33,051 nucleotides of DNA, taken from an uncultured Verrucomicrobiales bacterium. GTDB lineage: Bacteria; Verrucomicrobiota; Verrucomicrobiia; Verrucomicrobiales; Akkermansiaceae. Numbering within the stretch: the first letter of the stretch is position 1; every line of letters starts with the position of its first letter. Under the pieces are notes generated by a model. It saw nothing but the letters and a program-made list of their open reading frames with translations, ran no database searches and was not told the origin of the DNA. Positions 3,250 through 12,437 of this stretch are shown piece by piece. The stretch is from NCBI GenBank assembly GCA_937930235.1, contig CALGLJ010000063.1, forward strand, positions 1 to 33,051, written 5' to 3'. A program made the translations under genes and the position numbers.

Positions 3250-3251
3250 AA

Positions 3252-3327
3252 TCACCTCTCCAAGGGATTAAATACTACGGGAAAAAGCTTTCGAATGAGG
3301 AGATTTTTACTCTCATGGAGAGGGTGA
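3252..3327 (+). other. Candidate structured RNA leader or attenuator
   Basis: TCACCTCTCCA (3252-3262) pairs with TGGAGAGGGTGA (3316-3327) over 11 base pairs with one bulged G, enclosing 53 nt. A competing pair, AGCTTTC (3286-3292) with GAAAGCT (3326-3332), would exclude the outer stem. A small inner hairpin ATGAG/CTCAT lies at 3295-3316. The order resembles a switchable leader, but the conserved guanidine-I (ykkC) core was not found. It could also be the terminator of the previous gene, whose stop codon is two bases upstream. Confidence 0.35.
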
Positions 3328-3368
3328 AAGCTGCATTTTAAGCACGAGAATCATCTTGGAGATTTTTA
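3299..3368. repeat. Direct repeat upstream of the guanidine operon
   Basis: GGAGATTTTTA occurs at 3299-3309 and again at 3358-3368. Two identical 11-bp words ahead of an operon that starts with its own DNA-binding regulator are candidate half-operators. The downstream copy overlaps an AT-rich stretch that includes AAAAAgtctaTTTTT (3371-3385). Confidence 0.35.
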
Positions 3369-3387
3369 TTAAAAAGTCTATTTTTCG

Positions 3388-3393
3388 TAATAT
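3388..3393 (+). promoter_or_regulatory. Candidate -10 element of the guanidine operon
   Basis: TAATAT sits 16 bases before the ATG at 3410 and is one substitution from the consensus TATAAT. No convincing -35 is found 16 to 18 bases upstream, where the sequence is T-rich; this would fit a promoter that needs an activator or is weak. Confidence 0.3.
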
Positions 3394-3409
3394 CTAGCAA
3401 CCCAAGCTT

Positions 3410-3856
3410 ATGTCAAAACGCGAACAAGTAGAACGAATCAGTCTGTCTCTCCCGGGAAATATTCTCCGTGAATTTGATGAGATTGTTGAAAAAAGAGGAT
3501 TCGATAGTCGCTCGCAAGCGGTGAGTGAACTTGTGGCCCGTGAAATTGATCGATACACCACATCGGAAAGTGATGGAATCATGGCAGGGACGATCACTCT
3601 CGTGTATGAACATTCTAAGGGAGATCTTAAAAAGAGGCTGTCAGAGATTCAGTATGAGCACATTAGCGAGGTGATTAGCACCATGCAGGTCCTGTTAGAA
3701 AATCACCACACTCTGGAGGTGATCCTCGTTCAGGGGCGAGCAAGCCAACTCCGTAAAATTTCGGATGAATTGATTACCTCGAAAGGGGTGAAGAGTGGCA
3801 CGATGACATTGACCGCCCCCGTGATGCCTCCGATTCAATATCCCACGAATCAATAA
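3410..3856 (+). CDS. NikR-family ribbon-helix-helix regulator lacking nickel ligands
   Basis: A transcription regulator of 148 residues, the normal NikR length. Residues 5-50 form the ribbon-helix-helix DNA-binding domain ([20 protein letters not shown]). Residues 60-140 match the ACT-like C-terminal NikR domain ([16 protein letters not shown]). Aligned by eye to E. coli NikR through the shared LE-x5-G end of the metal-site segment, the nickel ligands His76, His87, His89 and Cys95 correspond to Tyr82, Gln93, Leu95 and Thr101. Nickel sensing at the canonical site is therefore unlikely. The gene is eight bases ahead of the DUF1989 pair and shares their operon, so its natural job is probably control of guanidine catabolism. 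Candidate ligands are guanidine or a pathway intermediate; this is an inference. Near-site His84, His99 and His100 could form another metal site. Confidence 0.88.
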
Positions 3857-3864
3857 CTTTTTTA

Positions 3865-4584
3865 ATGAATCCAATATATCAGACGAATCTCACGGGAGCA
3901 GGAATGTGGTCCAAGGTCGTCAGCCGGGGAAAGCTCATCCGGTTTACCGATCTGGAAGGGGGGGCGAACGTGAGCCTCCAGCTCTTTAATGCCCACGAGC
4001 GGACTGAGCGTTATAATATGCCCGACACGCTCAAAGGTCAGCAGGTATTCTACCTCACTCAGGGGATTTGCCTGCACTCAGATATGGGGCGAATTCTCGC
4101 TTCGGTGATCGAGGATACCATGGGGTGGCATGATACCGTCTGTGGAGTCACTGATGAAGCGGATGTCTTTCAAAAGCACGGTGAGAAGAGCTATCAGGAC
4201 GCGAGAAATGATTGGTATCGTAGCGGAAAAGACTGCTTTTTGATCGAGCTGGCGAAATGGGGGCTTGGGAACGAATCACTTCTTCCGAATGTCAATCTTT
4301 TCAGCAAGGTGGTGACGGATGAAGAGGGAGATCTCAATTACGTTTCAGGTGCTTCCCAAGCAGGCTCATCCATCACTCTCCGTATGGATATGGACTGCCT
4401 GGTCGTTTTAAATACCTGCCAACATCCCCTGAATCCAGAAACCACGTATCAAGCCAAGCCAGTGAAACTTGAAGTGTTCCAGGGACCACTCGAGCTTCCC
4501 GTTGATGATGAGTGCCGAAATTCTCACCCCGAGAACGAGCGCGCATTCACGAATACTGAAGACTACCACACCTTAAGATTCTAA
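3865..4584 (+). CDS. Carboxyguanidine deiminase subunit (DUF1989, UAAP2-type)
   Basis: One of two paralogous DUF1989 proteins in this operon, 239 residues, matching the longer urea-carboxylase-associated protein 2 type. Members of the pair are now known to form the carboxyguanidine deiminase CgdAB, which turns carboxyguanidine into allophanate and ammonia. Visible family motifs are GWHDTVCG (87-94), which carries the His-Asp-Thr core, and NTCQHPLN (183-190). There is no signal peptide, so it acts in the cytoplasm. It lies one base before the second subunit gene, which supports translational coupling and a heteromeric complex. I do not assign CgdA or CgdB to the two proteins because the letter order is not certain from memory. 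The alternative older name is urea-amidolyase-associated protein. Confidence 0.85.
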
Positions 4585-4585
4585 G

Positions 4586-5224
4586 ATGACAGAAAGCCGA
4601 TTGAATCCAGAAAACGCCATTTTTCGTAACAAAATCGACGCCGGTGATTACTGGTGGCACGAGATTAAGAAAGGGCAAATTTTACGCATTCACGATCTCG
4701 AAGGAAATCAGGCCGCCGATACCTTATTTTACAAAGCAGGTCACCTACATGAGCGCTATAGCGCGAGTGATACCATCAAACGGCAGCAAGGACTCTATCT
4801 CACAACTGGATCGGTCCTGATGTCTACCGCAGGGCATCCGATGTTAGAGATCATTGCTGACACCTGTGGACGCCACGATACCGTCGGCGGCGCGTGTTCT
4901 CGCGAGAGCAATACCATGCGTTATGATCTCAATAAGGAGCCCATGCATGCCTGCCGTGATTCATTTATTCAGGGAGTGCAAAAAATGGGAGGGTCAAAAG
5001 CAGACATTACCTGTAACATTAACTTTTTTATGAATGTGCCGGTGAGCCCTGAAGGGGGGCTGACTTTTGAAGATGGCATTTCCGCACCCGGCCGGTATGT
5101 CGAATTACTTGCCCTCATGGATGTGGTGACTCTCATTTCAAATTGCCCTCAGTTGAATAACCCCTGTAACGGGTGGAATCCTACGCCCGTGGAAACCTTG
5201 ATCTGGGACCAGCCAGCTCCTTAA
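4586..5224 (+). CDS. Carboxyguanidine deiminase subunit (DUF1989, UAAP1-type)
   Basis: The second DUF1989 protein, 212 residues, similar to the shorter urea-carboxylase-associated protein 1 type. Motifs include [13 protein letters not shown] (92-104), HACRDSF (121-127) and [11 protein letters not shown] (186-196); the His, Asp and Cys residues are probable metal or catalytic site members. It is about the same fold as its neighbour (shared LEG, HER and HDT motifs), so the pair arose by duplication. The expected role is the second subunit of CgdAB, hydrolysing carboxyguanidine to allophanate. The spacing of one base before and four bases after places it firmly in the operon. Cytoplasmic, with no membrane segments. 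Confidence 0.87.
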
Positions 5225-5228
5225 AAAT

Positions 5229-8200
5229 ATGTTTAAGAAAGTTCTAATTGCCAATCGGGGTGAAATTGCCGTGCGCATCAGTCGCACCCTGCGCAAAATG
5301 GGAATTCAAGTCGTCGCGGTCTATTCCGAGGCTGATCGTGGAGCACCGCATGTCTTGGAAGCGGATGAAAGCTATTTCTTAGGGCCGAGCTCTGTGGATG
5401 AGAGTTACCTCAATATGCCGCGTCTTTTGGAAATCATTTCCGAAAGTCGAGCGGAAGCCGTACATCCTGGTTATGGCTTACTCAGTGAGAATGCGGAATT
5501 TGCAGAAAAGGTGGAAAAAACAAACTGCCGTTGGTTGGGGCCAAGTCCTGAGTCGATGAGGCAGTTTGGTCTCAAGCATGCGGCTCGTGATCTGGCGCAG
5601 AAAGCAGGCGTTCCACTGTGTCCGGGGACAGATTTGATCCAGAATGTCAGCGAAGCACTGCAGGCCTCTCGTGAAATTGGCTTTCCGCTTATGCTGAAAA
5701 GCACTGCGGGCGGGGGAGGAATTGGTATGACGGTGTGCCATTCGGAAGAGGAGATTGAAAAAACTTTTGAAACGGTAGTGCGCCAGGCACAGGCAAACTT
5801 TGGCGATGGAGGCGTCTTTTTAGAACGCTTCGTTGAATCGGCCCGCCACATCGAGGTGCAGCTCTTTGGAGATGGGAAAGGAAATGTCATCTCTTTGGGG
5901 GATCGCGATTGTTCCGCGCAGCGGCGGAATCAAAAGGTCGTGGAAGAAACTCCCGCTCCCGGATTAACTGAGGCGAAGCGTGCCGAACTTTTTGAAGCGG
6001 CAATTAACCTTGGGAAGATCGTCAATTATCGTTCGGCTGGCACCGCAGAATTTCTTTACGATATCGAGCGCGAGGAATTTTATTTCTTGGAAGTGAACTG
6101 TCGCTTGCAAGTGGAACACGGAGTGACGGAGCTTGTGACCGGCGTGGATCTTGTCGAATGGATGGTGCGACTGGGAGCCGGGGAAGATCCCATTCAACCC
6201 GTGACCCCAAGTGGCGCGGCGATCGAAGCGCGAGTGTATGCCGAGGATGCGTCTAAGAACTTTCTCCCAAGTGCCGGCCTGATTACGCGTGCTTCCTTTC
6301 CCCAGGGAGTGCGGTGTGATACCTGGATTTCCGATGGGACAGAAGTGAGCTCATTTTATGATCCTCTCTTGGCTAAAATCCAAGTCCGGGGCGAGACCCG
6401 TGAGGATGCTCTCGCACAACTCCAGGAGGCCTTAAAAGAGACTCGTATTGGGGGGATTCGGACGAATTTAGATTACTTGCAGGTGATCGTTGGAAGCGAA
6501 GACTTTCAAGCGGGCGGAGTGAGTACGAAATGGCTTTTGACCCTCTCGTTCAAACCTCGTATTATCTCGGTGCAGAAGGGTGGGACCATGACCACGGTGC
6601 AGGATTGGCCCGGACGAATTGGCTTTTGGGATGTCGGAGTGCCGCCTTCTGGCCCGATGGATTCCCTGAGCTTGCGCATGGCCAATCGCTTGGTGGGAAA
6701 TGCCGAAGAAGCGCCCGGCTTGGAGATCACGCTGACCGGTCCCAATCTGCATTTTAACATGGATGTCACCGTGGCTCTGGTCGGGGGGCGTTTGAAAGGG
6801 AACTCGATTCCGCAAAATGAACCAGTAAAGGTATTTGCTGGGCAGGTGTTGGAGGTGGGGGAATTGGACATTGGGTGCCGTGCTTATCTCGCGATTGCAG
6901 GTGGAATTGATGTTCCAGAATATCTTGGGAGTTGTTCGACTTTCACTCTAGGACAATTCGGCGGACATGGAGGGCGCGCTCTTTTGCCCGGTGATGTGTT
7001 AGAAATTGGGGAGATGCCGCCGAAGGTCTCTTTATTAGAGGAACAAGAGCGCCATTGGCCGGTGATAACTCATGAATGGGAGATCGGAGTGCTTTATGGT
7101 CCTCATGGAGCGCCTGATTTTTTCCTAGATGAAGACATTGAAGAATTTTTCGCAGCTTCTTGGGAGGTGCATTTTAATTCTGCCCGGACTGGGGTGCGCT
7201 TGATTGGCCCCAAGCCTAAGTGGGCTCGTCCAGATGGCGGAGAGGCGGGGCTTCATCCATCAAATCTTCATGACAATGCCTACGCCATCGGAGCGGTGGA
7301 TTTCACCGGAGATATGCCGGTGATTTTGGGGCCTGATGGACCGAGTCTTGGTGGATTTGTCTGCCCTGTGGCGATTATTGAGGCTGAGCTTTGGAAAATG
7401 GGACAGTTGAAACCTGGTGATCGGGTCAAATTCCGCCCCGTCTCCATGGCCTCGGCACGTGAGATGGCTCAGCAAGTGGACTCTTGGATCAAAGTGGGTG
7501 GAGCTTACCCAGAACTCCCTCCCGCGAAACGTGAGAGCGTGTTTGTGGGGGAAAGTGAAGTGCAGGGGGAGCAGGTGAGAATCCGTCGTCAGGCCGATGA
7601 ATATGTCCTTCTTGAAATTGGGGAGATGGTTCTCGATCTTCGTCTGAGGTTTCTCGTACATCTACTCTACGAATGGCTCGGAAAAGAAGAACGTGAAGGT
7701 TTTGTCGATGTGACTCCGGGGATTCGTTCCTTACAAGTGCATTATGACCCATGGAAAATTACCGAAGCTGAGTTGGTGAAAATTTTGCTCAAGGGTTTGA
7801 CCGAACTGCCCGCCTTGGAAGATGCCAAAGTCTCTTCCCGAGTGGTGCATCTTCCGCTTGCTTGGGATGATCCGAGTACGCAGCTCGCCATCGATCGCTA
7901 TATGAAGGGGGTGAATCCTGAAGCGCCTTGGTGTCCGAGTAATATTGAATTTATTCGTCGGATCAATGGCTTAGAGAGCCGTGAGCAGGTGAAGGAGATT
8001 GTGTATTCTGCCGAATACCTCGTGATGGGGCTGGGAGACGTCTATCTTGGTGCGCCAGTCGCTACTCCTCTCGACCCGAGGCATCGACTCGTCACGACTA
8101 AATATAATCCAGCTCGTACTTGGACCCCGGAAAATGCGGTGGGAATTGGAGGAGCGTACCTCTGTATTTATGGAATGGAAGGTCCTGGGGGGTATCAATT

Positions 8201-8783
8201 CGTAGGGCGAACGGTGCCGATCTGGAACCGTTTTAATGAGACGCCGGTCTTTAAGAAAGACGCTCCTTGGCTCCTAGAATTCTTTGACCGCCTCAGTTGG
8301 TATGAAGTGTCATCAGAGGAGCTTTTAGAGATTCGCCGTCAGATGTTGACGGGGGAATACGTGCCACGGATTGAAGATGAAACCTTCCGCCTTGGAGAGT
8401 ATTTGACCTTTCTGGAAGAGGAGTCTGAATCGATCTCCTCCTTCCGGGACCTGCAGCGCGAGGCTTTTTCCGCCGAGAGGCAACGATGGGAGGAAGCGGG
8501 GCTCAATATGGCCAGCATGGAAGAGGTCGAAGTTGAGAGTGAAGAAATCGAACTCCCGGAAGGGTGCGAGTTTTTAGAATCACCCATGGCTGGCAGTGTT
8601 TGGCAAGTGTTGGTCGAAGATGGCAAAGATCTTGCTGAGGGAGAGGTCGGGGTCGTCCTTGAGGCGATGAAAATGGAAATGAGTGTCCCCGTTCTCCGTA
8701 AGGTCCAGGTGGAATCTGTTTTGGTGAAACCAGGGGCAATGGTGAAAGCTGGAGATCCTCTTCTGATTTTACGCCCTATTTAG
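5229..8783 (+). CDS. Biotin-dependent guanidine/urea carboxylase
   Basis: A single-chain carboxylase of 1184 residues, close to the usual 1200. Order of domains: biotin carboxylase with ATP-grasp fold (about 1-440; glycine-rich loop STAGGGGIGM at 158-167 and RDCSAQRRNQKVVEE at 226-240), a KipA/AHS2-like half (about 444-755), a KipI/AHS1-like half (about 780-1000), and a biotinyl domain (about 1105-1184) with the biotin site EAMKMEM, Lys1148. It uses ATP and bicarbonate to carboxylate the substrate. Enzymes annotated urea carboxylase that are encoded beside the DUF1989 pair act mainly on guanidine; that neighbourhood is why I favour guanidine. The residue that separates urea from guanidine preference was not identified with certainty here, so urea remains possible. 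Four bases separate it from each neighbour. Confidence 0.93.
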   Translation: MFKKVLIANRGEIAVRISRTLRKMGIQVVAVYSEADRGAPHVLEADESYFLGPSSVDESYLNMPRLLEIISESRAEAVHPGYGLLSENAEFAEKVEKTNCRWLGPSPESMRQFGLKHAARDLAQKAGVPLCPGTDLIQNVSEALQASREIGFPLMLKSTAGGGGIGMTVCHSEEEIEKTFETVVRQAQANFGDGGVFLERFVESARHIEVQLFGDGKGNVISLGDRDCSAQRRNQKVVEETPAPGLTEAKRAELFEAAINLGKIVNYRSAGTAEFLYDIEREEFYFLEVNCRLQVEHGVTELVTGVDLVEWMVRLGAGEDPIQPVTPSGAAIEARVYAEDASKNFLPSAGLITRASFPQGVRCDTWISDGTEVSSFYDPLLAKIQVRGETREDALAQLQEALKETRIGGIRTNLDYLQVIVGSEDFQAGGVSTKWLLTLSFKPRIISVQKGGTMTTVQDWPGRIGFWDVGVPPSGPMDSLSLRMANRLVGNAEEAPGLEITLTGPNLHFNMDVTVALVGGRLKGNSIPQNEPVKVFAGQVLEVGELDIGCRAYLAIAGGIDVPEYLGSCSTFTLGQFGGHGGRALLPGDVLEIGEMPPKVSLLEEQERHWPVITHEWEIGVLYGPHGAPDFFLDEDIEEFFAASWEVHFNSARTGVRLIGPKPKWARPDGGEAGLHPSNLHDNAYAIGAVDFTGDMPVILGPDGPSLGGFVCPVAIIEAELWKMGQLKPGDRVKFRPVSMASAREMAQQVDSWIKVGGAYPELPPAKRESVFVGESEVQGEQVRIRRQADEYVLLEIGEMVLDLRLRFLVHLLYEWLGKEEREGFVDVTPGIRSLQVHYDPWKITEAELVKILLKGLTELPALEDAKVSSRVVHLPLAWDDPSTQLAIDRYMKGVNPEAPWCPSNIEFIRRINGLESREQVKEIVYSAEYLVMGLGDVYLGAPVATPLDPRHRLVTTKYNPARTWTPENAVGIGGAYLCIYGMEGPGGYQFVGRTVPIWNRFNETPVFKKDAPWLLEFFDRLSWYEVSSEELLEIRRQMLTGEYVPRIEDETFRLGEYLTFLEEESESISSFRDLQREAFSAERQRWEEAGLNMASMEEVEVESEEIELPEGCEFLESPMAGSVWQVLVEDGKDLAEGEVGVVLEAMKMEMSVPVLRKVQVESVLVKPGAMVKAGDPLLILRPI

Positions 8784-8787
8784 TGCC

Positions 8788-10506
8788 ATGAAAACAATTC
8801 AGGAATACCGGGAGGCTTATGCTGCAGGCCGGAGCGTCAAAGAGGTCATGCGTGACCTTTGGGAAACCATTCAAGCGGATGAAGATGAGGGGATTTTTAT
8901 AGTCAAATTCACCTGGGAGCAGATCGAAGCCCAGTTGGATGATGAGGATGGCCCTTTGAAAGGGATTCCTTTCGTTGTGAAGGACAACATCGATATCGGA
9001 GGGAGTCCTACCACTGCCGGATGCCCGGATTATGAGTATATGGCAAAGGAGTCGGCCCCGGTGGTCGATCTTCTCCGGCGAGCAGGGGCGATTTGTTTTG
9101 GCAAAACCAATTTGGATCAATTTGCCACGGGACTTGTCGGAGTGAGGACTCCGTATCCTGTTCCCAAAAATGCCTTTGATGAGAATTATCTTCCCGGAGG
9201 ATCGAGTTGTGGCTCGGCCATTGCGGTGGCAAAGGGCCTCGCGGTGTTTTCTTTGGGGACTGATACGGCGGGTTCCGGTCGCGTGCCAGCAGCTTTTAAT
9301 GAACTGGTGGGGCTGAAGCCAACTCGTGGGTATCTTTCCACCCGAGGAGTGGTTGACGCCTGTAAGTCGCTCGATTGCGTTTCCATCTTTGCACAAAATT
9401 GTGCGGATGCGGATCAGGTGCTCCAGGTGACGGCGAGTTACGATGCGGAAGAAGCGTGGAGCCGTCCTGCCTTGGCAAGCTGGCCCCGTATTGGATCAGA
9501 ATTTACCTTTGGCGTGCCTTCGTCAGCGCACTTGAATTTTTTCGGATGGGATACTGCTGAAGAATTGTTTGAAAAAGCAGCACAGCGTTTTGAAGCGATG
9601 GGTGGGCAACGTGTCGAGATTGATTTAAGCCCCTTCATCGACGCGGCAAAGTTGTTATACGAAGGTCCGTGGGTCACGGAGCGCTTTGTCGCGATTCGAG
9701 ATTTTTTAAAATCCAAACCGGACAAAGTCTTCCCGGTGACGCGTCAGATTATCGCGGCTGGTGAGACGCCGGTGGCGAGTGCTCTTTTTGAAGCTCAATA
9801 TAAATTGGCTGACTGTAAGCGCCTGGCCACGCAGGAGATGAGAAAGGTGGACTTTGTCTTGCTGCCAACCACCCCGAGAAATTTCACCCTCGATGAGGTG
9901 GCTGCAGAACCAGTTCAACTCAATTCCATTCTAGGAACATACACGAACTTCATGAATCTCTTAGATTACTCCGCATTGGCTCTGCCGGCAGGGCGATATG
10001 AAGGAACGCTTCCTTGGGGGATTACCATTTTTGCGGAAGCGGGGATGGACCGAGCCTTGCTGGAACTGGGCTCGATCTACGAAAATGGAGCCCCTGCGGG
10101 GGGAGACTGGGACGAAGTTCAGATTGCGGTTTGTGGAGCGCATCTTGATGGGATGGCTCTCAATTGGCAACTCACTGACCGAGGGGGAAAGCTGGCATAC
10201 GCATCGCAAACGGCTCCGGAGTATCGCATGTATCTCATTCCTGAAGGAGGAGGTCTACCGGAGCGCCCGGCGCTCATCATGGAAGAAGGAGGAGTAGCGA
10301 TCGAGGTTGAAGTCTGGACTCTAAGCCGAGAGGCTTTTGGCGATTTTGTTTCCCTGATTCCAGCTCCATTAGGAATTGGAAAAGTGCTTCTCAAAGATGG
10401 GACGGAGGTGCCTGGGTTTATCGCCGAGCCAAGAGCTGCTGCAGGTGCTCGCGATTTGAGTGAATTTCGTGGCTGGCGTGGATACCTAGCCCGAGGCTCA
10501 GCGTAA
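8788..10506 (+). CDS. atzF: Allophanate hydrolase
   Basis: Amidase-signature enzyme of 572 residues that hydrolyses allophanate to ammonia and CO2, the last step of the pathway. The Ser-cisSer-Lys triad is visible: Lys65 in PFVVKDN, Ser139 in GGSSCGS, and nucleophile Ser163 in DTAGSGRVPA. Residues about 455-572 form the extra C-terminal domain typical of allophanate hydrolase (VAVCGAHL-like start, then LNWQLTDRGG), which separates it from plain amidases and matches AtzF/DUR1-type enzymes. It is the last gene of the operon and its stop lies inside the 3' end of the convergent tonB gene, with a nine-base overlap. No transporter for guanidine or urea is seen in the operon. Confidence 0.92.
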   Translation: MKTIQEYREAYAAGRSVKEVMRDLWETIQADEDEGIFIVKFTWEQIEAQLDDEDGPLKGIPFVVKDNIDIGGSPTTAGCPDYEYMAKESAPVVDLLRRAGAICFGKTNLDQFATGLVGVRTPYPVPKNAFDENYLPGGSSCGSAIAVAKGLAVFSLGTDTAGSGRVPAAFNELVGLKPTRGYLSTRGVVDACKSLDCVSIFAQNCADADQVLQVTASYDAEEAWSRPALASWPRIGSEFTFGVPSSAHLNFFGWDTAEELFEKAAQRFEAMGGQRVEIDLSPFIDAAKLLYEGPWVTERFVAIRDFLKSKPDKVFPVTRQIIAAGETPVASALFEAQYKLADCKRLATQEMRKVDFVLLPTTPRNFTLDEVAAEPVQLNSILGTYTNFMNLLDYSALALPAGRYEGTLPWGITIFAEAGMDRALLELGSIYENGAPAGGDWDEVQIAVCGAHLDGMALNWQLTDRGGKLAYASQTAPEYRMYLIPEGGGLPERPALIMEEGGVAIEVEVWTLSREAFGDFVSLIPAPLGIGKVLLKDGTEVPGFIAEPRAAAGARDLSEFRGWRGYLARGSA

Positions 10507-11322
10507 GCGGAAGGGGAATGACTGCGTGACCGTGCTACGGATTTTCTGCCCCAGACCATTGACGGCTGGTTTGAAACGAAATTTTCTCGCCGCTTTGAGA
10601 GCCGCTTGATCAAGCGCGGCGTGGCCGCTGGATTTGACTTTGGTGACTTGAGAGACGCGCCCGTTAGTTTCGATCGTGATTCTCACCACCACGGTTCCAG
10701 TCTGTTTCGCTTTTTTTGCGGAGCGAGGGTATTTGGGTTTGGGGCGGCTTGTAGGGACAGCTCGGCGTGCAATCCGTTTGGCTTCCCGTGCGCGCTTTGC
10801 GGCTGCGGCTTGTTGCGCTTTTTTTGCCGCTGCGGCTTTTCGTCGTTTTTCGGCTGCGATCTGATCTTTACGGCGCTTCTCGGCTGCTCGCTTTTTCGCG
10901 AGCTCCTGTTTTTTTCGTTTTTTTAATTCACGAATTCTCTGATCCTCCTGCCGCTGTTTGATGATCGCAGGATCAATTTTTGGCTTGGGAGGAGTGACTG
11001 GTTTTGGTGGTGGTGTGGGCTCAGGCTCTGGAGCAGGTGGCTCAGGTTCAGGCTCGGGTTCGGGTTCAGGCTCGGGCTCCGGAGTCGGTGGCTCAGGTTC
11101 GGGTTCCGGAGCAGGTGGTTCGGGCTCCGGTTCCGGTGCGGGCGTGGGTTCCGGTGCCGGGGTGATTTCAACCAGATCGAGATCGAGAAGGGTGTTTTCA
11201 ATTTCTGGTGGCTCGTTGTCTTGCTCTGTGAATCTAATCCACCAGAGGGCGCCTGCATGGAGTCCTAGCGTGAGAAAGGCGATGCAGATCCAGATGGGAA
11301 CTTGATTACTGCGAGTCGTCAT
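10498..11322 (-). CDS. tonB: TonB family energy transducer
   Basis: Inner-membrane protein that passes the force of the proton gradient to outer-membrane TonB-dependent receptors. The ATG at 11322 is preferred over one at 11355 because the product then starts MTTRSNQVP just before the single N-terminal membrane helix (IWICIAFLTLGLHAGALWW). It has a Pro-Glu repeat spacer, a long Lys/Arg/Ala-rich helical segment with KKRAAEKRRK runs, and the C-terminal TonB domain with PKYPRSAKKAKQTGTVVV, GRVSQV and FRFKPA. About 274 residues from this start. It overlaps the end of exbD by 17 bases, so it is the third gene of exbB-exbD-tonB. No TonB-dependent receptor is in the window, so the cargo is unknown. 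Confidence 0.92.
   Translation of the reverse strand: MTTRSNQVPIWICIAFLTLGLHAGALWWIRFTEQDNEPPEIENTLLDLDLVEITPAPEPTPAPEPEPEPPAPEPEPEPPTPEPEPEPEPEPEPEPPAPEPEPTPPPKPVTPPKPKIDPAIIKQRQEDQRIRELKKRKKQELAKKRAAEKRRKDQIAAEKRRKAAAAKKAQQAAAAKRAREAKRIARRAVPTSRPKPKYPRSAKKAKQTGTVVVRITIETNGRVSQVTKVKSSGHAALDQAALKAARKFRFKPAVNGLGQKIRSTVTQSFPFRLR
11002..11163 (-). repeat. Pro-Glu repeat region in tonB
   Basis: A low-complexity tract encoding tandem PEPEP and APEPEP units that reach across the periplasm. At DNA level the + strand shows repeats of GGCTCAGG and GGTTCGGG. Such tracts change length by slippage and span the periplasm in TonB proteins. Confidence 0.8.
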
Positions 11323-11719
11323 CTTTCTTATGATAGCCAAGTTTGAGAATCCCACACTCGCGGGCTGTTTCGATGACCGTGATAAAGGTCCCCAGATGAG
11401 CCTTGCGATCCCCTCGGATTTCTAGGGATTCCATGCCCGTCTCTTGAATGAGACTTTTTATTTTCTGCGGGAGAGCGTCGAGAGTGATTTCAGAACCTTC
11501 AAGAAGGATTCGATTGTCAGCTTCGATGACGAGCGCGAGGGAGTCTTTCACCTTGCTCACCGGGGCAGAAGTCACCGGCCCTGTGGGGAGATCGACTCGA
11601 TGGTCGGGTTTGATAAACTGACTACTCACCATCAGGAAGATGAGGAGCTGGAAAACCACGTCGATGAGCGGGGTCATATCGATCCCGGCATCAATGCGTC
11701 GTTTACGAGTGATGAGCAT
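11306..11719 (-). CDS. exbD: ExbD/TolR biopolymer transport protein
   Basis: Membrane protein of 137 residues of the ExbD/TolR family, partner of ExbB in the proton-driven motor that energises TonB. It has one N-terminal membrane helix with the essential acidic residue, Asp20 in DMTPLIDVVFQLLIFL, and a periplasmic domain of about 100 residues. It starts three bases after the exbB stop. Its end overlaps the tonB start. The set sits opposite to the guanidine operon. ExbD and TolR are hard to tell apart on sequence; adjacent tonB makes ExbD more likely. Confidence 0.9.
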   Translation of the reverse strand: MLITRKRRIDAGIDMTPLIDVVFQLLIFLMVSSQFIKPDHRVDLPTGPVTSAPVSKVKDSLALVIEADNRILLEGSEITLDALPQKIKSLIQETGMESLEIRGDRKAHLGTFITVIETARECGILKLGYHKKDDDSQ

Positions 11720-11722
11720 GGT

Positions 11723-12319
11723 TTACTTGTCTTCCTGAGAGAAATACCACTCGCGTAAATGTGAAGTGAGTTGGTTGAGATCATGGACCAATTTATCCAC
11801 GCGAGATTCAAAGATCTTGGCCATTGCCATCGCTGGGATTGCCACAAGGAGTCCCGCCACCGTGGTCAGAAGACCGGTCCATATCCCATCTGCAAAATCT
11901 GCTGGACTGACGGTATCACCCAGTTTGGCGATTTTAGAGAAGGCAATCACCATTCCCCATACCGTTCCCAGAAGACCAATGAGGGGCGAGATTGCTGCGA
12001 TGAGCGCGAGAATACGTAGACCACGTTCGTGCTCAGAAATGACTCGGGACGCTTCTCGTTCCGTGACATTGAGGCAATGCTCTTCACCTCCCGAAGTTTC
12101 TTTCACAAAAGCCTTTGCGACACGACTGAGAGGATTGGCGTTTGGAGGCGGGCTGGAGTTGTTCTGGAGAGCCTTTAAAGTGGGGCCAACACGGTATCTC
12201 CGCAGGGTGTAGAAGAGGAACCGTTCCAGAATGATCGCTACGGAAATCAGCGAGAGAATCAGAAGCGGCCACATAAAGCCACCTCCTTGGAGAAAGAGAT
12301 CTTTGAGATCAAAAGTCAT
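11723..12319 (-). CDS. exbB: ExbB/MotA/TolQ proton channel protein
   Basis: Inner-membrane protein of 198 residues from the ATG at 12319. An alternative TTG start at 12349 would add ten residues; the ATG is preferred because GGAAG stands a few bases upstream of it on the coding strand. Three membrane segments are seen at about 16-33, 102-128 and 148-170, with the typical family text SPLIGLLGTVWGM and ADGIWTGLLTTVAGLLVAIPA. It forms the proton channel with ExbD. The cytoplasmic loop between helices 1 and 2 has the usual size for ExbB. It is the first gene of the exbB-exbD-tonB operon. Confidence 0.91.
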   Translation of the reverse strand: MTFDLKDLFLQGGGFMWPLLILSLISVAIILERFLFYTLRRYRVGPTLKALQNNSSPPPNANPLSRVAKAFVKETSGGEEHCLNVTEREASRVISEHERGLRILALIAAISPLIGLLGTVWGMVIAFSKIAKLGDTVSPADFADGIWTGLLTTVAGLLVAIPAMAMAKIFESRVDKLVHDLNQLTSHLREWYFSQEDK

Positions 12320-12437
12320 TGCTTCCGGTAGAGTGAGAGCGGAATGCAAAGAGTAAAAGTCTGAATTTGAGGTTTATGTCAGAACAGGCTGGATAGAAAA
12401 ACTTTCAACACATTGTCTCTGATAGTGTTAAAACGAA

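Follow-up and report, generated by a model that had tools for sequence, protein, structure and literature searches.

A NikR-like protein without nickel ligands seems to stand in for the usual RNA switch at guanidine-use genes

The window, by which we mean the whole 33,051-nucleotide stretch of DNA analysed here, carries a short gene for a NikR-like regulator that is followed on the same strand, with short gaps, by UAAP1, UAAP2, a TIGR02712-type carboxylase and allophanate hydrolase (Table 1). All four downstream genes exceeded their NCBIfam cut-offs, which agrees with the original prediction that the regulator is the first gene of an operon with the DUF1989 pair, the carboxylase and the hydrolase. 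Residue 691 of the carboxylase lies at the position of N1330 in K. lactis urea amidolyase, which we take to be the position that discriminates the Asp from the Asn enzymes, and the guanidine-type Asp was found in all 73 carboxylases of loci where the position could be read. Asp is assigned to guanidine carboxylases and Asn to urea carboxylases in the available text of PMC12186494, and by this residue the window's enzyme is marked as a predicted guanidine carboxylase. No nickel genes were found among the Pfam and NCBIfam families of the window operon.

Table 1 Features of the regulator and the guanidine operon in the window
Feature	Position	Strand	Basis
Predicted operator, 28-bp dyad TTATTAAAAAGTCTATTTTTCGTAATAT with TATTA-N16-TAATA core, 16 bp before the ATG	3366..3393		family matrix
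NikR-like regulator, 148 aa, nickel ligands absent	3410..3856	+	Pfam RHH_1 and NikR_C
Ribbon-helix-helix DNA-binding domain, residues 9-48	3434..3553	+	PF01402
NikR_C domain, ligand positions replaced	3584..3814	+	PF08753
Substituted ligand codons Y82, Q93, L95 and T101	3653-3655, 3686-3688, 3692-3694, 3710-3712	+	HMMER/MAFFT alignments
UAAP1 / DUF1989, carboxyguanidine deiminase subunit by family	3865..4584	+	TIGR03425, 313.0 bits (cut-off 205.95)
UAAP2 / DUF1989, carboxyguanidine deiminase subunit by family	4586..5224	+	TIGR03424, 318.3 bits (cut-off 284.7)
Biotin carboxylase annotated urea carboxylase	5229..8783	+	TIGR02712, 1767.8 bits (cut-off 1303.85)
Asp691 of the carboxylase, guanidine carboxylase mark	7299-7301	+	aligns with K. 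lactis urea amidolyase N1330
Allophanate hydrolase	8788..10506	+	TIGR02713, 688 bits (cut-off 511.05); PF21986 AH_C

The importer genes of the same genome sit on another contig, C37; relatives carry importer genes within the regulon. A pair of binding-protein genes with kinship to the guanidine importer was observed there (L164, G000:C37:24264-33000). One has a permease and an ATPase with it; behind the second come a long ORF of membrane-like type and an ORF resembling a response regulator, both named by eye. Facing the guanidine operon at 10498-12349 on the minus strand of the window are TonB-like (with Pro-Glu repeats), ExbD-like and ExbB-like ORFs, likewise recognised by eye.

The domains proposed for the regulator in the original prediction, RHH followed by NikR_C, were both recovered by Pfam, RHH_1 with 23.3 bits and NikR_C over residues 59-135 with 84.6 bits (E 5.5e-24), and this protein is the sole NikR_C match in the window's draft genome (86.6% complete). 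Its PDB sequence matches were all NikR (12 of 12; P. horikoshii NikR best, E 8.4e-31), as were all of the 50 Foldseek matches listed for an AlphaFold2 monomer model built from 57 sequences (mean pLDDT 84.7). Whole-chain TM-scores of the model against NikR structures reached only 0.4-0.7 because the two domains swing, and the C-terminal domain lay within 1.0-1.3 A of the Ni-bound E. coli domain 1q5y. We aligned the protein with E. coli NikR 1q5v and P. horikoshii NikR 2bj1 using HMMER, and with E. coli NikR read from NC_000913.3 using MAFFT. In all three alignments His76, His87, His89 and Cys95 (E. coli numbering), which we take to be the NikR nickel ligands, fell on Tyr82, Gln93, Leu95 and Thr101 of the window protein. 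These are the residues to which the ligands had earlier been assigned by eye, and as the separate alignments agreed, a misalignment was rejected.

The association of the regulator with guanidine genes was conserved. Among 288 genomes of the window's phylum, which we read as Verrucomicrobiota from those near relatives that carry names, a NikR homologue was found in 98 and UAAP2 over the cut-off in 35; 20 stretches were picked by hand from the NikR-homologue matches. In 24 of these 35 the regulator immediately precedes UAAP1 in the same orientation; in four (G039, G048, G134 and G172) it is divergent and 3.8-5.9 kb from UAAP1, and in seven it was absent. In all three of the four divergent loci that were fetched, ABC importer genes lay between the regulator and UAAP1, joined in two of the three by creatininase- and glutamine synthetase-like genes. 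A wider contig scan, based on peptide patterns from the family alignment and thus favouring family members, confirmed 284 relatives, including some from Gammaproteobacteria, Methylophilaceae and Parvibaculum. In the best 80 of the 284, which were kept, DUF1989 was downstream in 67 and at least one pathway gene was in the locus in 79. The 13 without DUF1989 downstream comprised 12 with importer or glutamine synthetase-like genes and one (L078) with none; L076 also has the carboxylase and allophanate hydrolase. These counts, which are uncorrected for kinship, support the conserved link between NikR-like genes and DUF1989/carboxylase operons on which the original prediction depended. A chance neighbourhood was rejected because the link holds across two phyla.

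No Rfam family matched at the gathering score in the window, so no catalogued guanidine riboswitch is present there. A hidden catalogued riboswitch was rejected, since no Rfam match was obtained in the window or in 14 loci of its phylum. With strict filters and 12 candidates per genome among the matches listed, guanidine-I (RF00442) was found in none of the 288 genomes of the phylum. Guanidine-II (RF01068), searched with strict filters and 20 candidates scored per genome among the matches listed, was over the cut-off in 14 of the 288 genomes, in none of them near a UAAP2 operon; with strict filters neither riboswitch was found in the window's own genome.

In Gammaproteobacteria, UAAP2 was over the cut-off in 29 of 369 genomes, of which 21 have guanidine-I and eight lack it. 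The regulator was directly upstream of UAAP1 in seven of the eight genomes without guanidine-I (G301, G309, G358 at a contig edge, G394, G437, G500 and G643, but not G607) versus none of the 21 with it (Fisher p 5e-6, uncorrected for kinship); a NikR homologue is encoded elsewhere in four of these 21 (G298, G521, G631 and G673). A second sample consisted of 23 proteobacterial genomes chosen for carrying the regulator, all with UAAP2 and three of them (G298, G301 and G309) shared with the 29. The regulator adjoined UAAP1 and guanidine-I was not found in 16 of the 23. In the other seven, guanidine-I was located upstream of UAAP1 on the UAAP1 strand, at 81-223 bp in five genomes and at 1.9 and 2.0 kb in the remaining two. 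The NikR-like gene of these seven was found elsewhere, in the company of importer or glutamine synthetase-like genes, so that a different ligand is conceivable. From this gene order, the regulator appears to take the guanidine-I position before the importer and deiminase genes.

A scan for guanidine-II covered 15 of the 16 proteobacterial loci where the regulator adjoins DUF1989 (L111 omitted), and ten of these 15 operons have the riboswitch immediately before the carboxylase; two of the ten matches had E-values of 0.0097 and 0.014, yet were over the gathering score. The ten (L047, L057, L066, L067, L069, L070, L099, L101, L107 and L109) have a NikR-like operator at the front. Operons of this type, as far as their predicted elements tell, have two kinds of control in one operon. 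The enterobacterial arrangement given in the available text of PMC12186494 has guanidine-I on the importer and deiminase genes and guanidine-II on the carboxylase and hydrolase genes.

Neither the regulator nor a guanidine-I match was present in seven of the 35 operons of the window's phylum and in gammaproteobacterial G607, so other control exists. Five of the seven phylum operons (L115-L119, in G210, G002, G011, G089 and G112) had no NikR-like gene, operator or Rfam match, and four of the five have three DUF1989 genes. One further NikR-like gene (L120, G254:C1:842066-842452) contains an in-frame TGA and has a poor operator match of 3.0 upstream, and is possibly a decaying copy.

To define the operator, we examined 87 stretches upstream of NikR-like genes. 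Perfect 7-bp inverted repeats with spacers of 14 and 16 occurred in 11 stretches each (0.4 and 0.8 expected), and with a spacer of 12 in six (0.4 expected). The resulting symmetric matrix describes a 28-bp dyad with the consensus GTAWTAC-N14-GTAWTAC, also GTATGA-N16-TCATAC. Sites over the 99% null of mononucleotide shuffles were found in 48 of the 87 stretches, and the matrix was trained on these 48, all from the window's phylum. The window's site, which neither comparison of the upstream DNA with the nearest relative nor a generic inverted-repeat search had revealed, scored 14.0; it is the sole site above 12 in the window (next best 8.5) and the weakest of the 48 matrix sites. After the matrix was retrained without the window, it scored 12.4, a value reached by one of 5000 dinucleotide shuffles of 3250-3409.

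Over 1.249 Mb of sequence from 94 loci, the matrix gave 97 sites above 12, 96 of which were within 320 bp upstream of pathway genes: 47 before the NikR-like gene, 34 before the importer binding-protein gene, nine before UAAP1, four before a glutamine synthetase-like gene, and one each before the carboxylase and a permease; the last was classed as other. Training had used the 47 sites upstream of NikR-like genes plus one in L113, which leaves 48 pathway-gene sites and the one classed as other as untrained. Shuffled loci gave three sites above 12 in 0.76 Mb. A site was present in 77 of 89 loci with the regulator, five of the 12 site-less loci being cut by contig ends, and in none of five DUF1989 loci without the regulator. 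With the family matrix, no operator was found at the importer genes of the window's own genome on contig C37. At 22 proteobacterial loci with the start of the importer cluster, exact copies of GTAWTAC-N14-GTAWTAC were found in 20 and a copy one base off in L091, all of them 13-120 bp upstream of where the match to the binding-protein gene starts; the copy in L100 is two bases off and 263 bp before the permease match. All but one of the 22 scored above 12, the exception (L101, 8.3) being due to differing inner bases.

The palindrome before E. coli nikA, which is presumably the NikR operator, scored 28.8 with the family matrix, the top of 10 kb. The half-sites of H. pylori NikR are TRTTA/TAWTA, two helix turns apart, in the available text of PMC5385501. 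Given the nikA match and the likeness of the H. pylori half-sites, the regulator family seems to keep the DNA code of NikR, as judged from predicted sites.

Type III glutamine synthetase-like (TIGR03105) and creatininase-family (PF02633) genes accompany the importer in many relatives (for example L103:4783-6952 and L112:6558-8738), and in some loci an operator lies directly before the glutamine synthetase-like gene (L112:7356 and L114:9416). Perhaps a related guanidino or ureido compound is handled by these genes.

Sigma-54-type promoter elements were called as GG-N10-GC matching 9 or more of the 14 consensus letters, using a consensus and a start-site distance that we assume for sigma-54. They were found in 29 of 47 Verrucomicrobiota operator stretches, compared with 1.8 expected and two on the reverse strand, and the remaining 18 stretches had none at 9/14. 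Seven of the 29 were at an offset of -3, with the operator over the -24/-12 region, 19 at +27 to +31, with the operator just upstream of the element, and three elsewhere. Of the proteobacterial importer sites, 21 of 22 had such an element (2.6 expected, two on the reverse strand), 18 at offsets of -22 to -24 and three at -29 to -30, which puts the operator across or right against the start expected from the assumed spacing. In the window no GG-N10-GC element was found at the operator, and a generic promoter scan gave one match on the wrong strand (0.8 expected). Operators positioned over or against sigma-54-like promoters favour repression, in addition to control by nitrogen limitation. We regard it as extremely likely that the NikR-like protein is the regulator of the guanidine regulon, and quite probable that it is a repressor. 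Guanidine-use genes that are usually under an RNA switch thus seem to be under a protein here.

The same promoters bear on the signal that is sensed. They point to nitrogen control, and the protein might regulate the guanidine regulon while responding to the general nitrogen status or to some different metabolite (2-oxoglutarate, glutamine, urea, allophanate, carboxyguanidine or ammonium); sigma-54 control, however, would already give the nitrogen signal. ACT-type domains often bind amino acids, the C-terminal domain of the regulator is presumably ACT-like, and the regulon includes type III glutamine synthetase-like and creatininase-like genes, all of which would suit such a signal. That the regulator nevertheless trades places with an RNA switch specific for guanidine in front of the same genes, and that guanidine-II is retained as well in 10 of 15 operons, makes this account unlikely beside one in which guanidine or a close metabolite is sensed.

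To better understand the fate of the metal site, we aligned 148 rows and merged identical cores to 133 unique proteins, a set in which loci from the contig scan and from the phylum overlap (L156 had no tblastn match, and L124, the same region as L031, has no row). Proteins were counted as linked when a pathway gene was in the same locus, which for L014, L015, L020, L021, L129-L134, L136 and L139 was decided by coordinates. Cys95 was kept in none of 100 linked members versus 30 of 33 unlinked proteins. Two of the three Cys-less unlinked exceptions (L078 and L135) grouped with the family on the tree, and the third (L031) was too short to place. None of the linked members kept all four ligands; three were kept in 28, two in 21, one in 41 and none in 10. 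The 28 retain all three His, and the 10 with neither His nor Cys at the four positions include the window's regulator. Shared ligand loss among DUF1989-linked NikRs, which the original prediction proposed to check, is therefore confirmed for Cys95 (gone in 100 of 100) and does not extend to complete loss.

In a tree of 130 rows, which omits L031, L139 and L159, the Cys-less group formed one side of a single branch (SH-aLRT 99), and Cys95 changed once compared with seven changes at H76, nine at H87 and six at H89. The split of the family was supported at 100/97 in a tree of 78 rows without the ligand columns, for which every second family member was taken and L138 and L140 were also omitted. 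With one change at Cys95 and 6-9 at each His, loss of Cys95 looks like the founding event of the regulator clade, after which the His residues would have been lost later and unevenly, with the window's protein at an end point. By alignment, degeneration of the metal site extends through the entire clade.

Some of the members with three His may still bind metal, and the window's regulator exceeds the cut-off of the NCBIfam NikR equivalog NF003381 (126.5 versus 105); both would fit a protein that still senses nickel or another metal through an altered site. We consider this improbable against the universal loss of Cys95, the repeated changes at the His positions, the members stripped of His and Cys altogether and the operon free of nickel genes. 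Moreover, G130 and G394 each carry an NikR with the HHHC ligand set together with a family member, so the two roles seem separate. We are thus highly confident that the NikR-like regulator is not nickel-responsive. As NF003381 accepts the ligand-less window protein, it is suggested that clade members are annotated as nickel-responsive by mistake, and such automatic annotation is probably wrong.

The family has constraints of its own: Q108 and P140 occur in 99 of 99 aligned members, the position of Q108 being R or K in 29 of 30 Cys-bearing NikRs, and the acidic residues E87 (84 of 100), E97 (68) and E103 (85) are conserved, none of them invariantly. A vestigial metal site that varies freely and the 47 of 97 operators before the regulator's own gene might suggest an effector-less autorepressor or architectural RHH protein that sets only a basal level, which is very improbable for a protein whose C-terminal domain is intact, with this family-specific constraint, and which occupies the place of an inducible switch in relatives.

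Taken together, we find it fairly probable that a nickel-independent NikR paralogue keeps the guanidine regulon repressed until guanidine or a close metabolite releases it. The earlier reading of the protein as a guanidine sensor is supported in part, by the operon link, the degenerate metal site, the guanidine-type Asp and the alternation with guanidine-I, and we lean towards guanidine itself as the effector. In the proposed mechanism, two RHH dimers flanking the C-terminal core of a tetramer, modelled on NikR, would bind the 28-bp dyad defined by comparative genomics, with half-sites 21 bp apart. The dyad covers or abuts a sigma-54-type promoter in most relatives, and from this geometry the bound repressor would block RNA polymerase. 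Guanidine or a closely linked metabolite, on entering the cell, would bind to the C-terminal domain, most likely where the metal site used to be, and the ligand-bound repressor would leave the DNA, allowing the importer, deiminase, carboxylase and allophanate hydrolase to be made. The regulator would thereby be the DNA-level counterpart of the guanidine-I riboswitch, which works on RNA.

The regulator shares the RHH and NikR_C fold with NikR of E. coli, P. horikoshii and H. pylori, and a dyad operator whose half-sites are spaced by roughly two turns of the helix, seen in the regulator family at the sequence level and present as a weaker copy in the window. It differs from NikR in forming a separate clade in which all linked members have lost Cys95, and the window's protein all four ligands, in sitting with guanidine rather than nickel genes, and in having Q108 and a Pro-containing C-terminal tail. 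The guanidine-I (ykkC) riboswitch precedes the same importer and deiminase genes and alternates with the NikR-like protein, but it is an RNA, in contrast to a protein regulator, and had no match in the window or the 288 phylum genomes. The guanidine carboxylase operons of Enterobacterales, as described in the available text of PMC12186494, share UAAP1/UAAP2, the Asp carboxylase and allophanate hydrolase with the window, and the importer with its relatives; they are controlled by guanidine-I and guanidine-II riboswitches, whereas here a protein appears in the guanidine-I role.

The literature searched contained no paper on the regulator clade and none joining NikR with guanidine carboxylase or DUF1989. 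In their available text, PMC2667541 gives no link between NikR and urea carboxylase or allophanate, and PMC12153308 gives none between NikR and allophanate or urea carboxylase, the match there being an author's name. A search on NikR, guanidine and riboswitch surfaced only a paper on a c-di-GMP-binding protein, a further one gave just two papers on H. pylori NikR, and one on guanidine-responsive transcription factors gave nothing relevant among the matches listed. By term counts, NikR and repressor are absent from the main texts of the comammox guanidine and methylguanidine papers.

With moderate confidence, we propose that this is the first recognised family of guanidine-sensing transcription factors: a paralogue of NikR in which the nickel site was lost a single time, beginning with Cys95, and the operator code of NikR was kept. 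It would replace or partner guanidine riboswitches across Verrucomicrobiota and Proteobacteria, gating sigma-54-dependent guanidine regulons. The family is a concrete candidate for a guanidine sensor, with a defined operator and natural riboswitch-to-protein replacements at the same genes. If this is true, a metal sensor can turn into a metabolite regulator with its DNA code retained.
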